Virus record (IMG/VR): IMGVR_UViG_3300028596_000022
Span: 1 to 47,029 of that record
Reading direction: 5' to 3' (one strand)
Length of the DNA stretch: 47,029 nt
Origin: a virus
The translations under genes and the position numbers were made by a program. A model generated the notes under the pieces. It was not told where the DNA came from and made no database searches. It was given only the letters and a program-made list of their open reading frames with translations. Within the stretch, counting starts at the first letter, position 1, and each line of letters begins with the position of its first letter. This document shows, one piece after another, positions 5,468-16,637 of this stretch.

Positions 5468-7096
5468 ATGCAAGGTTCCGACATCGAAAGCGAAGCACCA
5501 GCGCCGGATGATTCCGATCTGGTGCATGAGGCCGAGGCTGTTGCGCAGGTAGAACTGCCGGCCGAAGAACGTGCCCCGGCCGAAGAAAAGCCGCGCACTG
5601 AAATGCACGACGACGAAGACTCCGACCTGCCCAATGAAGACCAAGCGTCTTCCGAAGCCGGTAAGCCGTTCTTCGAAGCCGACCACTGGCAGAGCGACAA
5701 GACCTACCAGAAGGAGCCGATGGTTAAAGACCGTCCGGCTAACTTCGAACCCCCGTTCACCTTGATTGTCCCCTCGCTGAACACCAAAGACGCTACCCGC
5801 GTTGCTGAAGCGCTGGAACCAGTCATCAAGCATGTCTCTCCACAGACTGCTGAATGGCTCCGCCGCATTGTGACCAGCCAGTCGATGATCGTGGCCAACG
5901 GTCAGTTCGAAGCTTCTCTGCAACGTGATGGCTCGCTCTGGCTGCAAGCACCTGAACACGACGGCATCAAGCTGGTCGCTCAGGTGCCCGCCATTGCACA
6001 GCCTGCACCTGGCACTATCCTGACCGGCCAAGATGCTGAGATCCACATGGCTCAGCAAACCAAGACCTATGCCCGGATGATGTTCCCCCTGTACCACACC
6101 GGTATCTGGTTGAACGTCGCAGTGCCCCACGGCTCCGAGCTGCACGTCCTGGAAGAAGCACTGGCTGCTGCCAAGTACGACCTGGGCTACATGACCAAGG
6201 GCCTGGTTTACTCCAATACCTCAGTCATGCAGAACATCGCGCTGGTCAACTTCGTGTTGGACCATGTGATCAACTCTTCGGCGGAACACACCACCACTGC
6301 GTTCCTGAAGAAGGTGATTCGCATCACCGACATTAACTTGATCGCTGCGAACATGTCGTCGGCTATCTATCCGTCGGGCTTCCCGCTGGAGCGCCCGTGC
6401 TCTGCTGAGCCGATGAAGTGCCACAACGTTACCAAGGGCCTGCTGCGCCTGTCCAAGATCATCTGGACCGACGACAACGGCCTGTCGGCTTACCAGAAGA
6501 AGTTCATGGCTACTCGTCTGGCTGGCCAGAAGAAAACCGAGGCGGACTTCAAGAAGTATCAGGAGGAATTCCCCGGTGTTACTCAACGTGTTGTCGAAAT
6601 TGCTCCTGGCATCAGCGTTCTGCTCATGCCTCCAACTATCGAACAGTACGAGCAGTCCGGCTATTCCTGGATCGAGTCGATTGAGCGTGGGGCGAACGCC
6701 ATGCTCAACACCCCAACTGGTCCTGAACTGAACGCTCACATGACTGCGCAGTATCAACTGCAGTCGATGCGCCAGTACGCCCACTGGGTAGACGCGATCA
6801 TTTACCCGAACGACGTGTCGGTACGTGACCGCGAGACCATCAACAATCTGCTTGCCAAGCAGTCGGATAACACCGACCTGGTTGACAAGTTCATTGCTGC
6901 GGTCAAGCAGTTCATCGAAGACTGTGTTGTCTCGGTCGTCGGCATTAACAACTACAGCTGCCCATCCTGTGGTAAGTCCCAGACTGCCGAAGGTTCGCGC
7001 AATCCGAAGTTGATCCCCCTCGACCCGGTCCACACTTTTTTCACCCTCAGCGGCCTGAAGACTCAAACTACTCTCTCGAAAAACTCGGAGCACTAG
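5468..7096 (+). CDS. Possible baseplate/tail assembly protein, 542 aa, unshifted form of a frameshifted gene
   Basis: The zero-frame product has an acidic, disordered N-terminus (about residues 1-75), a long central domain, and a C-terminal zinc-ribbon-like end with C498-PS-C501 followed by LDPVHTFF. A late Cys pair before a PLDP..FF segment recalls proteins of the T4 gp26 baseplate-hub family, but this match is by eye and weak. The striking point is position 7036-7042, where T TTT TTC stands in the zero frame (codons ACT TTT TTC). A -1 shift there opens a frame that runs without a stop to 7578. Without the shift, translation ends 17 codons later at TAG 7094-7096. An AAAGG site precedes the ATG. 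A short form plus a frameshifted long form is the arrangement of tail assembly chaperones, which fits an assembly role. Confidence 0.75.
   Translation: MQGSDIESEAPAPDDSDLVHEAEAVAQVELPAEERAPAEEKPRTEMHDDEDSDLPNEDQASSEAGKPFFEADHWQSDKTYQKEPMVKDRPANFEPPFTLIVPSLNTKDATRVAEALEPVIKHVSPQTAEWLRRIVTSQSMIVANGQFEASLQRDGSLWLQAPEHDGIKLVAQVPAIAQPAPGTILTGQDAEIHMAQQTKTYARMMFPLYHTGIWLNVAVPHGSELHVLEEALAAAKYDLGYMTKGLVYSNTSVMQNIALVNFVLDHVINSSAEHTTTAFLKKVIRITDINLIAANMSSAIYPSGFPLERPCSAEPMKCHNVTKGLLRLSKIIWTDDNGLSAYQKKFMATRLAGQKKTEADFKKYQEEFPGVTQRVVEIAPGISVLLMPPTIEQYEQSGYSWIESIERGANAMLNTPTGPELNAHMTAQYQLQSMRQYAHWVDAIIYPNDVSVRDRETINNLLAKQSDNTDLVDKFIAAVKQFIEDCVVSVVGINNYSCPSCGKSQTAEGSRNPKLIPLDPVHTFFTLSGLKTQTTLSKNSEH
7036..7042 (+). 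other. Probable -1 ribosomal frameshift site (TTTTTTC)
   Basis: The heptamer T TTT TTC fits the X XXY YYZ rule for tandem -1 slippage: both tRNAs (zero-frame TTT and TTC) can re-pair with TTT TTT. The -1 frame is open from here to the TAA at 7578. The downstream frame has no ATG at its beginning and no ribosome binding site. A perfect 11-bp inverted repeat (7110-7120 with 7164-7174, 43-base loop) lies 67 bases downstream. That is far for a classic stimulator, so its role is uncertain. Confidence 0.7.
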
Positions 7097-7578
7097 AGCC
7101 TTCACAAATCCAAACCGAAGCCGGATTATCAGTTAACACTAAGCGCCACGTTAACGATCCGAACTTCGGTTTGGACACCGACCTTTATGACACAGAGCTG
7201 GCGCGCATCCGCGAGGTGATCCATGAGACAGGTGATAAGCCTGACTATGTGGACTCCGAGATGATGATGCGCACGGTGTACGAGTCTGCGTTCGGTATAC
7301 ACAACCACTACGGGCCTAATCAACATCCTTTCGCTTTGGTCGCGGCTCATCCAAAGGAAGATTTTGTTCCGTACTCCAGTCGGTTCCGTGACTATGCGGC
7401 TTACATCAATGCGCGGGTCTACGAGACTACCGGGATTCCAATGGACAAGTTCTTTGATCGGCCTCGTGCCGAGATTGAAATGATCATGGGTCTTGTGCGA
7501 GTCAGCAACCGCAAGCAGGCACACAGCGCTGAAGAGATTGCCGCGGCAGCGCGAGCAGCTCAGCAGGGCAAGAAGTAA
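7042..7578 (+). CDS. Frameshift extension of the 5468 gene (adds 178 aa, total 703 aa)
   Basis: Read in the -1 frame after the slip site, this segment adds 178 residues, starting HPQRPEDSNYS, and gives a 703-residue fusion with the upstream frame. If it were a free gene it would have to start with TTG at 7171, which has no ribosome binding site, while the frame is open for about 130 bases before that TTG. The extension is hydrophilic. Its later part has RFRDYAAYINARVYETTGIPMDKFFDRPRAEIEM split over residues usable as a helical domain, and an Ala-rich helical tail (EEIAAAARAAQQGKK). This looks like a functional C-terminal domain comparable to the T part of a G-GT tail chaperone, or to a T4 gp51-like partner. 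Both comparisons are inferences from architecture. Confidence 0.65.
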   Translation, partial: HPQRPEDSNYSLEKLGALEPSQIQTEAGLSVNTKRHVNDPNFGLDTDLYDTELARIREVIHETGDKPDYVDSEMMMRTVYESAFGIHNHYGPNQHPFALVAAHPKEDFVPYSSRFRDYAAYINARVYETTGIPMDKFFDRPRAEIEMIMGLVRVSNRKQAHSAEEIAAAARAAQQGKK

Positions 7579-12896: not shown

Positions 12897-15800
12897 ATGA
12901 AAGAGTACGATCTGGCCAGCTTGGCCCAGGCGTCTGACAAAGATCTGGTTGAGTTCCTCGGTCAGAACGAGCGTGTCATCGGTGAGGTGACTGCCCACAT
13001 TGCCAACCTGGAACGCCTCAAGGGTACCAGTCAGGCACATGCGCTTGGCTACCAGGAATACCTGCCCGACGAAATCACCATGCAGGACTTTGACACTCAC
13101 CTGTCGAAGAAAGGCTACCAGATGTCCACCGAGGCTCTGCACACCATCCTGCTCGTGGCCGCATCCGCCGCTGTCGTCGCTGGCATCGGTATCATCGCCT
13201 ACAAGCTGATCAAAGCTTCGATGGCCAAGGAGCCCAAGTCCGCCGACTTCCTCAAGAAACAGAAGGAAGTTCAGCAGTTCGCCATGCATTTGATCAAGGT
13301 GCAGTGGAGCGATGCCGCCGCCCCTACCCGTGAAGCGCTGAAGACCAAGTTCCTGGCCGACTGCGTCAGCGAAGTAACTGCGAACCTGTCCGAAGCAGAC
13401 CTGCTGAACGACCCGTTCAACGCCTACGTGCGCAGCGAGTTCAAGACCTCCGGCGTTCCGTACATGGCACTGGTTGCCGGCATGCGTGGTCCAGCCTCGA
13501 TCTTCTCTGGCGCTGCCACCATCTACCTGACCAACGTCAAGGAATCGCTGGAAGCCTTCCGCCGTGAGTTCCTGGACGTGATCGCTGGTGCGCCTGATAT
13601 CACCGACCACCAGATGATCAACCTGGTCAATGGCCTCAAGTGGAACCAGATCGACAACGGTAACGCTGCCGGTGTTCAGGCTCTGATGGGTTGGATCAAT
13701 GCCATGGGTATCCCGTCCAGCAACCGTCTGGAAGAAGCCCTGCGCAATGCCAACGACATCCTGTCGGCCCCGGCCACCATCGACCAGATCAATGCCTACG
13801 ACCAGCACATCCAAGATGAGCTGATTGGCGAGGGCACTGTTCCCAAGGTCATTGCAATGATCCAGTCGCTCAAGGCCACCGGCAAGTACATCGAAGGTGC
13901 CAAGGGTAACTTCGTGGCTGGCGAGAAACGCTCGCAGCAAGTGGTTGACCTGTTCAAGGCCCAGATCGAACGTGCGCAGCTGCTGACCGACACCATCCCT
14001 CTGATCTCGCCACTGGTGACCCTGGAGTCCGACAACATCGTTCGTCGCTCCAAGTGCATCGCCAATGCCGGCAAGGCCCTGCTCAATGCCATTGAAGATG
14101 TGGCAGACAAGCTGGAAGACAAGGAAGCGGCCAAAGAGATCCGCACCGCGTTGGACGAGATTGCCCGTGCGTCCAAACAAGTGCTGAAAATGAAAACCGA
14201 GTCGCTGGTAGAACTTCCTGCCCCGGTCAGCTACGGCACCATGATGGACCTGCAAGCCAAGTCCGTGTGGATGGAACTGCTGAAGTCTTTGGCAGTGGCC
14301 GCGATGATCGGCCTGGCCGTGTTCGCCATCCAGGCGCTGGTATTGTCTATGTTGGGTCTGCAGTCGATGGCTGCATCCTTCGCTGGCGGCATCGTTTATT
14401 TCAACAAGAACGGTAAGCGTATCACCCCTGGCGAAGCCGCCGACGCCATTGCCAAGACCGTTGAGGAAAAGCGTACTGGCAAATACGGCGCGACCCTGGT
14501 AACCGGCCAACGCAATCTGCCATTCATTCTGAACCGTAGCCATCTGGACTCTGGCTTCAAGGACGTGGCTGCTGGCGTTGAGAAGTCGCTGAACGAGTTT
14601 GCCAACGAGCTACCGCGCGGGGGTGAGATTACCAGCGAGGCTATGGTTGCCGCCGCCAACAGCGGTATGAAGCACCTTAAGCGCACCATCTCCATTTTGG
14701 AAGGTCGTTTGAAGGGCATGAAGGTCAAGGTACCAGGCGGCGACCCGTCGGTTAAAGCCACCACCCACAACCTGCGTGACGCGATGGATGCTTACGTTGA
14801 CGAGTGGTTCAACCCTGAAAAGGCGAACTACGCTATCGTGCGTCAGGGCATCGACACCACCTGGTTCGGCGTCATGGACCCGAAGATGGCCGAGCACGTG
14901 GACGCCAACGCCAAGGTTCTGACCGACGGCATCGTACGCTTTGCCAAGTCCATCCCGAACGCAAGTAAGGATGAACTGACCAAGCTGTCGCCAGAGGCCC
15001 AAGAAGCCCATGCCAACTTCAGTCAGGCTCAGGCATACCTGGCAACCCTCGGCTTCGTCATTACTGAAATCACCAAGAAGGCAATTGCCGACGGTGGTAA
15101 AGGTATGCAGGCGGTAAAAGACAACCTCAAGATGAAGGGCGAGGATATTGGCGGCATCGAGGTCGAGGATGACTTCGGTGGTGACGACATCGTTCAGTAT
15201 CAAGAGGATCTCGATCCCTTGGTTGACATTGCAGACGCCATGGGCGACCTGTATGTTGACGAACAGACTGATGCAGTGATGGCCATCGAGAAGATGAGCG
15301 TCAAGACCAAGCGCTTGCTGATGACCGCTGGTATCGTCCTCGCATTGGGTGCTGGTGCTTATCTGCTGCTGTCCATGTCCCAGAACCGCCGCAGCCCTTC
15401 CTCGTTTGCAACTGACAAGATGTTCAAGCAAATCCAGAAGGACCTGGAGGCCAGCTTGGCATCTGAAGAGTTTGCAGCCCGGATGCAGGCTTCCAGTGAG
15501 GAGCTGGGCGATGCCTTGCAGAAGGACTTCGACCGCATGCGCAAGCAAGCGGAGAGCCTTCGCCAGAAGACCGCGCAGCCGACCGAGAAAGAAGTCGGCG
15601 GCCAGCGTGTTGACGCAGGTGCCGCGCGCCCTGCTTCTGTGCATCCGCGCATCGGCGAGACCGGTTCCCCAGTGGCCGGGTCCAACAATGCGTCTCAGGC
15701 CAACCCTGAAACCACTTGGATCAACGACGTACCACACAGCACCGAGGCCCTACAGATTGCCAAGGAAGTGGACGAACTGATCGCCAACCTCGGCAAGTTC

Positions 15801-16637
15801 GACTACAAGGGTGTGCTGCGTAGTCGTCTGGTTGAGCGTGCCCCTGGCATGGTTGCTTTGAACATGGCCACCGGTGGCTTCGACAAGGCTAGCGAGATCC
15901 TTTCGGGTGACCGCACGCGTCGTGTCGATAAGTTGATGGACCTCATGACCCACGTCATGGAGAACATCGTTGAACCGGTCATCGATGTGGTCCGCGGTCA
16001 GGGCGATACCAATCCACAGGCTGAGCAGGTCTACGACAAGGTTGTGGCTGCCATCGAAAAGGCAACCGCCGATGCTACTGCCGAACGACTGCTCGACGAG
16101 GCCTACATGGCTCGCACCGAGGAAGACTTCGCAGACTGGTCCAAGCCTTGCACCGAGTCCGATGTGGTGGAAGCCATGGGTCGCTTCGATCCGAAGTGCG
16201 TGCAGTCGGCCGAGCGCTACTACCTGGACGAGGCCAAGTCTTACCACAGCTTGTCGCAAGACCTGGACTCGATGTGGAAGGACAACAAGGACTTCCTCAA
16301 CCGCGAAGTGGGTGATCGGTTCAACGAGCTGAAGGGTAACCGGGACGCAACCTCCAAGCTCATCCGCCGCATGGAAGAGTTCAAGCCAACCTTCAACGTC
16401 ATTGCGCGTTCGATCAAGGCTCATGTGGCCATCAGCGACGTCATCTTCGAGGCCAGTGAATTCTGCCTGCGGGTGCATCGCAGTGTGCAGCGTGAGCTGA
16501 TCAAGTCCCTGCAGTTCCACCAGATGAAGGTGGCCGAGCTGGATGCCCGTATGGGTAAACAGTCCGAGACGCTGGGCAAGCTCTCGAAAGAGATGCAGGA
16601 TCAGATCAACCGCTTCAATGATCGCAAAGATACCTAA
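12897..16637 (+). CDS. Giant helical virion protein with three membrane segments, 1246 aa
   Basis: The protein has three hydrophobic segments at about residues 80-105 (ILLVAASAAVVAGIGIIAYK), 460-492 (SLAVAAMIGLAVFAIQALVL) and 805-828 (LMTAGIVLALGAGAYLLLS), separated by long helical regions of 300-350 residues. Two are preceded by [A/S]-x-E sites: STE79 before A80, and AIE798 before K799. It may be three copies of the single-segment architecture of its neighbours fused in one chain, since each hydrophobic segment is followed by basic residues and a helical body. The stretch around 870-920 is polar and Gly/Pro-rich, probably a linker. The start has AAGGAG. No enzyme motif is seen. It is probably packaged, perhaps in the inner body, and cut into two or more parts. 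Confidence 0.65.
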   Translation: MKEYDLASLAQASDKDLVEFLGQNERVIGEVTAHIANLERLKGTSQAHALGYQEYLPDEITMQDFDTHLSKKGYQMSTEALHTILLVAASAAVVAGIGIIAYKLIKASMAKEPKSADFLKKQKEVQQFAMHLIKVQWSDAAAPTREALKTKFLADCVSEVTANLSEADLLNDPFNAYVRSEFKTSGVPYMALVAGMRGPASIFSGAATIYLTNVKESLEAFRREFLDVIAGAPDITDHQMINLVNGLKWNQIDNGNAAGVQALMGWINAMGIPSSNRLEEALRNANDILSAPATIDQINAYDQHIQDELIGEGTVPKVIAMIQSLKATGKYIEGAKGNFVAGEKRSQQVVDLFKAQIERAQLLTDTIPLISPLVTLESDNIVRRSKCIANAGKALLNAIEDVADKLEDKEAAKEIRTALDEIARASKQVLKMKTESLVELPAPVSYGTMMDLQAKSVWMELLKSLAVAAMIGLAVFAIQALVLSMLGLQSMAASFAGGIVYFNKNGKRITPGEAADAIAKTVEEKRTGKYGATLVTGQRNLPFILNRSHLDSGFKDVAAGVEKSLNEFANELPRGGEITSEAMVAAANSGMKHLKRTISILEGRLKGMKVKVPGGDPSVKATTHNLRDAMDAYVDEWFNPEKANYAIVRQGIDTTWFGVMDPKMAEHVDANAKVLTDGIVRFAKSIPNASKDELTKLSPEAQEAHANFSQAQAYLATLGFVITEITKKAIADGGKGMQAVKDNLKMKGEDIGGIEVEDDFGGDDIVQYQEDLDPLVDIADAMGDLYVDEQTDAVMAIEKMSVKTKRLLMTAGIVLALGAGAYLLLSMSQNRRSPSSFATDKMFKQIQKDLEASLASEEFAARMQASSEELGDALQKDFDRMRKQAESLRQKTAQPTEKEVGGQRVDAGAARPASVHPRIGETGSPVAGSNNASQANPETTWINDVPHSTEALQIAKEVDELIANLGKFDYKGVLRSRLVERAPGMVALNMATGGFDKASEILSGDRTRRVDKLMDLMTHVMENIVEPVIDVVRGQGDTNPQAEQVYDKVVAAIEKATADATAERLLDEAYMARTEEDFADWSKPCTESDVVEAMGRFDPKCVQSAERYYLDEAKSYHSLSQDLDSMWKDNKDFLNREVGDRFNELKGNRDATSKLIRRMEEFKPTFNVIARSIKAHVAISDVIFEASEFCLRVHRSVQRELIKSLQFHQMKVAELDARMGKQSETLGKLSKEMQDQINRFNDRKDT

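Follow-up and report, generated by a model that had tools for sequence, protein, structure and literature searches.

A probable -1 frameshift in a phiKZ-like jumbo phage gene, joining a T4 gp26-like protein to a C-terminal extension

The lambda tail assembly chaperones gpG and gpGT arise by a programmed -1 frameshift (Xu et al., 2004, as cited in PMC9024508). In T4, gp26 and gp51 are both counted among the chaperones of hub assembly; gp51, though required, is not part of the particle (PMC3004832). These two T4 proteins are paralogues, both matching PF12322 and both belonging to phrog_150, and gp51 continues beyond the point at which gp26 terminates in FF. They are encoded by two adjacent and divergently transcribed genes with no frameshift, whereas the locus presented here is predicted to be one frameshifted gene.

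The locus lies in a stretch of viral DNA of 47,029 nucleotides (hereafter the window). Judged by sequence, the window is a fragment of a phiKZ-like jumbo phage, because its proteins match those of phiKZ-like jumbo phages; the upstream protein discussed below is matched in 203 phage records. Other genes of the window encode a phiKZ-like major head protein (phrog_3231) and a DNA polymerase (phrog_3011). A megablast search of named phages with the first 24 kb of the window gave no match, and there is thus no close named relative at the DNA level. An ORF of 1246 aa at 12897-16637 had no PHROG or Pfam match. The features of the gene under study are the following.

5468..7096, + strand: upstream gene, zero-frame short form of 542 aa (ORF reading; phrog_4585, E 2e-98; profile and fold matches)
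6398..6421, + strand: first Cys pair, C311 and C318, half of a probable split zinc site (co-occurrence in relatives)
6959..6970, + strand: second Cys pair, CPSC at residues 498-501 (C498/C501), counterpart of CPEC in T4 gp26 (alignment, co-occurrence)
7031..7062, + strand: 32 nt spanning the slip site and the bases that follow it, near-invariant in comparison with three relatives, L014, L015 and L016 (51-65% protein identity)
7036..7042, + strand: slippery heptamer T TTT TTC, the proposed -1 frameshift site (sequence phase; kept in relatives)
7042..7578, + strand: -1 frame extension, 178 codons and a stop, forming the C-terminus of the 703-aa long form (phrog_12109, E 4e-24; codon-position bias)

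The zero frame opens with the ATG at 5468, runs through CAC ACT TTT TTC ACC and ends at the TAG at 7094-7096. TTTTTTC at 7036-7042 stands in slippery phase and occurs only once within the 47-kb window. It contains the single TTT among the Phe codons of the upstream gene, against 15 TTC. The -1 frame is open across 6976-7578 and runs on past the upstream gene, and an in-phase X XXY YYZ site falls within their overlap. The predicted slip product has 525 + 178 = 703 residues, with the junction ...HTFF/HPQR... When the window was re-read and the product recomputed, the phase of the heptamer, the ends of the two frames at 7096 and 7578 and the length of the fusion were all as the first-pass annotation had described them.

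The reading we favor, with a probability of roughly 0.8, is that one gene makes two proteins through a ribosomal -1 slip, and that its gp26-like short form and extended long form act as a hub/tape-measure chaperone pair. We infer both the ribosomal nature of the slippage and its rate: most ribosomes would read 5468-7096 and produce the 542-residue protein, and some would slip back one base at T TTT TTC, both Phe-tRNAs re-pairing from TTT-TTC to TTT-TTT. Slipped ribosomes would bypass the zero-frame stop and produce the 703-residue protein with its 178-residue C-terminal extension. The short form, on this reading a distant homologue of T4 gp26, would be a chaperone of hub assembly and contain a split zinc site, and the long form would have the role of T4 gp51, and of lambda gpGT beside gpG. 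The pair would most likely escort the baseplate hub and/or the tape measure during tail assembly, outside the virion. A short form plus a frameshifted long form had been put forward at first pass as the tail assembly chaperone type, which is supported and largely holds; the function itself, including binding partner and non-virion status, we infer.

The likeness to lambda gpG/gpGT lies in the arrangement. One gene would yield a short form and a -1 long form, the slip comes late in the upstream frame, the downstream frame has no start of its own, and the products are probably non-virion. There are also clear differences. The upstream protein of the window is of about 540 aa, gp26-like and with a probable zinc site, whereas that of lambda is of about 140 aa, and the lambda-type position directly upstream of the tape-measure gene was not found in the window or in the named phage loci. 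Homology to lambda G or T is not clear, Foldseek relating the short form to tail assembly and tape-measure chaperones only at E 0.4-0.9.

Similarity to T4 gp26 was found by both profile and fold comparison. AlphaFold modeled the short form well (pLDDT 79, pTM 0.79). In Foldseek the hits of this model, behind those to its own family, were to "Baseplate hub assembly protein, bacteriophage T4-like" (E 6.8e-5 and 1.2e-4); there was no match against the PDB. In hhalign, a gp26 profile built from T4, cyanophage, Rhizobium and Ackermannviridae proteins aligned with the C-terminal half of the upstream protein with a probability of 86-91% and a score of 50-55, compared to no more than 24 over 150 column shuffles and 15 for the reversed profile. 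With a smaller gp26 alignment plain hhalign was ambiguous, and the result became clear after the cyanophage, Rhizobium and Ackermannviridae relatives were added. At its end the alignment pairs CPSCG...HTFFTL of the window with CPECG...EFFELL, with which T4 gp26 itself terminates, and thus both proteins have a CPxC motif and FF at the very end. PF12322, matched by T4 gp26 and T4 gp51, is not matched by the protein family of the window, for which a Pfam search gave no match above threshold. The phiKZ-type protein also differs from T4 gp26 in a large extra N-terminal part. Profile and modeled fold support the upstream protein as a distant T4 gp26 homologue, and the term "gp26-type" used at first pass is borne out.

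The same annotation had described a C-terminal zinc ribbon. The CPSC at 498-501 is indeed present, but it appears to be only half of a probable split site, the other half being C311/C318. Among the 57 distinct proteins of the family (defined below), both Cys pairs are present in 39, neither in 18, and one alone in none. Because they are kept or lost together, it is probable that C311/C318 and C498/C501 form one split zinc site. T4 gp26 likewise carries two Cys pairs, and in the window, too, the second is followed by a C-terminal FF. The joint absence of both pairs from 18 of the 57 proteins indicates that several phages dispense with the zinc site.

In its position the extension is analogous to gp51, which bears out the proposed "gp51-like domain" in that respect; no sequence homology to the C-terminus of T4 gp51 was detected. 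The hhalign comparison of the extension with that C-terminus (phrog_634) gave a probability of at most 1.6%, near shuffle level, and in Foldseek gp51 came at rank 36 with E 3.6. The extension, for which the AlphaFold model is poor (pLDDT 67), matches its own family alone. What T4 and the phiKZ-type locus have in common is therefore a short/long pair with a C-terminal extension after FF, the extensions being unrelated in sequence by the tests applied.

A frameshift arrangement at the end of gene 26 was also found in T4-like phages. In cyanophage ACG-2014g (L081:2672-2872) and marine loci (L084-L122), gene 26 ends with T TTT TTC GNN TAG, and the -1 frame continues for some 62 codons (about 60 aa) into a gp51-like tail; 25 distinct gene 26 ends with TTTTTTC were found in ACG-2014g and further marine loci. 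Rhizobium phage RL2RES (L083) and one other locus (L124) have T TTT TTG at the end of gene 26, with a gp51-like tail in the -1 frame. As in the window, the slip site comes just before the upstream stop and the tail is in -1. However, in these phages the stop follows the slip directly, the protein is of about 240 aa, and the extension is recognizably similar to the T4 gp51 C-terminus, which the phiKZ-type extension is not. In the public record of Synechococcus phage ACG-2014g, the annotated "gp51" comprises only the last 31 codons of the proposed frameshift product. In gene 26 of Ackermannviridae (L082:2444-2617; L125-L142) the -1 frame is open for about 50 codons, which resemble a gp51 tail, and the site is ATT TTC ATT TAA, with no tandem slippery site; single-tRNA slippage or another mechanism possibly operates there. 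Short form plus frameshifted long form would thus, as far as the DNA can tell, span two wide groups of contractile-tailed phages, whereas the T4 pair is two genes.

It is conceivable, although unlikely, that the frameshift is real and that its product is not a hub/tape-measure chaperone but serves another step, such as DNA or transcription functions. The neighborhood would suit this: in the window and in the named phages the gene is surrounded by small unknown genes, DNA polymerase, helicase and vRNAP subunits rather than tail genes, and no tape-measure gene was recognized beside the upstream gene or its extension. On the other hand, the likeness of profile, fold, Cys pairs and C-terminal FF to T4 gp26, and the same gene-end frameshift arrangement in T4-like gene 26, argue for the chaperone pair. 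In the 201phi2-1 record gp138 is marked "identified using mass spectrometry", while gp136 and gp135, the counterparts of the two parts, do not carry that mark, which fits non-virion chaperones.

Conservation was assessed in 63 loci, namely the window, 39 IMG/VR loci fetched by the downstream part in a search of viral contigs with the downstream alignment, and 23 named phages found by either part. They collapse to 57 distinct proteins or genes. A downstream ORF in the -1 frame overlaps the upstream gene in all 63 loci. Both halves were recognized by profiles in 59 of them, the window included, with overlaps of 49-349 nt; in EL, Aphrodite1, RisingSun and AH04 the downstream profile was unmatched, and the next ORF is still in -1, with TTT TTT or TTT TTC at the FF codons. 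All loci but two have TTT TTY at the aligned FF codons, the exceptions being one TTT TTG and one CTT TTT. The zero-frame stop varies in position, about 10-39 codons past the slip. Heptamer and both frames kept while the stop moves is the pattern that the first-pass annotation had proposed to look for.

The heptamer itself is less uniform than the "ideal" tandem site described for the window. TTTTTTT was found in 40 loci, TTTTTTC in 14, GTTTTTT in 5, and TTTTTTG, ATTTTTC, GTTTTTC and ACTTTTT once each. The first base is G or A in seven relatives, and slip-site purity therefore varies: the TTT TTY pair is kept, the ideal heptamer not always. Vibrio phage pVa-21 (L056:3475-3481) is the sole relative with an A CTT TTT site, a run of five T, which by its sequence would still permit a single-tRNA slip from TTT to TTT. 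Imperfect heptamers (A TTT TTC, G TTT TTY, A CTT TTT) are a better fit to single-tRNA than to tandem slippage. Still, TTT serves as the first Phe codon in 56 of the 57 genes, compared to 14.7 expected from each gene's own codon usage, and the base ahead of it is T in 50 compared to 13.6 expected, the 57 genes being related and not independent events. The TTT excess is seen even in genes that avoid TTT elsewhere. Slip site and frame relation are thus kept beyond the requirement of the protein itself, and the slip codons are under selection.

T runs raise the question of transcriptional slippage, in which the phage RNA polymerase would slip on the run and some mRNAs would gain an extra U. Homopolymer runs are able to cause polymerase slippage, and runs of 7-9 T are present in 46 of the 63 loci. 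However, the run is just six T in the window and five or six in 17 loci, which is short for transcriptional slippage. The constant phase together with TTT TTY suits ribosomal slippage, although the FF codons would also fix the phase. We regard the transcriptional route as improbable. As for elements that might stimulate a ribosomal slip, no stable pseudoknot-free RNA structure 3' of the slip site exceeded shuffles in the window (z -0.3) or stood out among 55 loci (mean z -0.38), and no Shine-Dalgarno-like stimulator was found 5' of the slip site except in one locus. With no such downstream RNA structure detected, the T run may by itself be enough for the slip.

It is very improbable that the two frames are separate genes, with translation of the downstream one beginning on its own or by reinitiation past the upstream stop. 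Public records do annotate separate CDSs, and some relatives have an internal ATG, GTG or TTG in the -1 frame, a few with Shine-Dalgarno-like 4-mers. Nevertheless, the annotated starts are arbitrary (e.g., 138 nt in SL2 and 207 nt in AH06), share no common position and leave out conserved residues. The first standard start of the -1 frame in the window is TTG 7171, 75 nt beyond the zero-frame stop, the earliest ATG is at 7261, and a Shine-Dalgarno sequence is absent from both. The conserved HVNDPNFG motif precedes 7171 and is therefore beyond the reach of ordinary initiation. The downstream frame had been said to lack its own ATG and ribosome binding site, and this is what we found, not only in the window. 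There is no ATG, GTG or TTG ahead of the His36 column in 35 of the 57 relatives and no ATG in 52, and a Shine-Dalgarno-like 4-mer before any start upstream of Tyr80 occurs in 5. None of the relatives has a conserved start codon and ribosome binding site able to supply the whole downstream protein. Separate genes would also leave the TTT TTY conservation and the constant -1 phase unexplained.

Past the zero-frame stop, the -1 frame differs from L014, L015 and L016, whose proteins are 51-65% identical to those of the window, at 42/30/81, 49/28/83 and 44/36/90 sites in codon positions 1/2/3. Such a third-position excess is that of a coding frame, and with the same frame relation in 63 of 63 loci the open -1 frame is not due to chance. 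The invariant stretch of about 30 nt at the slip site is expected from double coding, since two frames are read there. An ancestral ORF split by an indel in this assembly, whether through sequencing error or as a pseudogene, is ruled out, although a homopolymer is a typical place for an indel error: two more IMG/VR contigs (L012, L013) are identical at the slip site, and the phase is the same in 60 other loci, which were assembled independently or come from cultured phages.

Counterparts of the upstream gene are phiKZ gp77, PhiPA3 gp74, 201phi2-1 gp136 and EL gp47, and those of the -1 part are PhiPA3 gp73 and 201phi2-1 gp135; these genes are direct homologues or positional counterparts of those in the window. 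Read at the DNA level, PhiPA3 gp74/gp73, 201phi2-1 gp136/gp135 and EL gp47/gp48 have a frame relation and slip site like those of the window. In contrast to the present reading, their records give two unrelated hypothetical proteins with the frameshift unannotated. The first-pass claim that the arrangement is unannotated stands, since no phage record examined joins the two frames, although one (L057) already labels the upstream gene gp26 and two others baseplate hub or baseplate protein. The label "putative ZipA-like cell division protein" on the homologue in Erwinia phage RisingSun (L061:1541-3355) is probably wrong. No description of the frameshift was found in the open-access literature; prior mention in subscription papers is possible. 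It is thus a frameshift device of known kind in a largely unannotated place.

We would give even odds to the idea that a single frameshifted hub-chaperone gene, with a gp26-type short form and a gp51-type long form, is ancestral to phiKZ-like and T4-like contractile-tailed phages, and that T4 genes 26 and 51 reflect a later duplication replacing the frameshift. If so, gp26/gp51 would be the T4 counterparts of lambda gpG/gpGT. Frameshifts in tail chaperones are already known, and what is absent from the examined records is the joining of these two frames. What public records list as the downstream genes would be truncated halves of a predicted fusion. Work on nucleus-forming phages has its main model in phiKZ-like phages, and in the records examined both genes are mostly "hypothetical". 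The result presented here offers a candidate tail-assembly chaperone pair for them.
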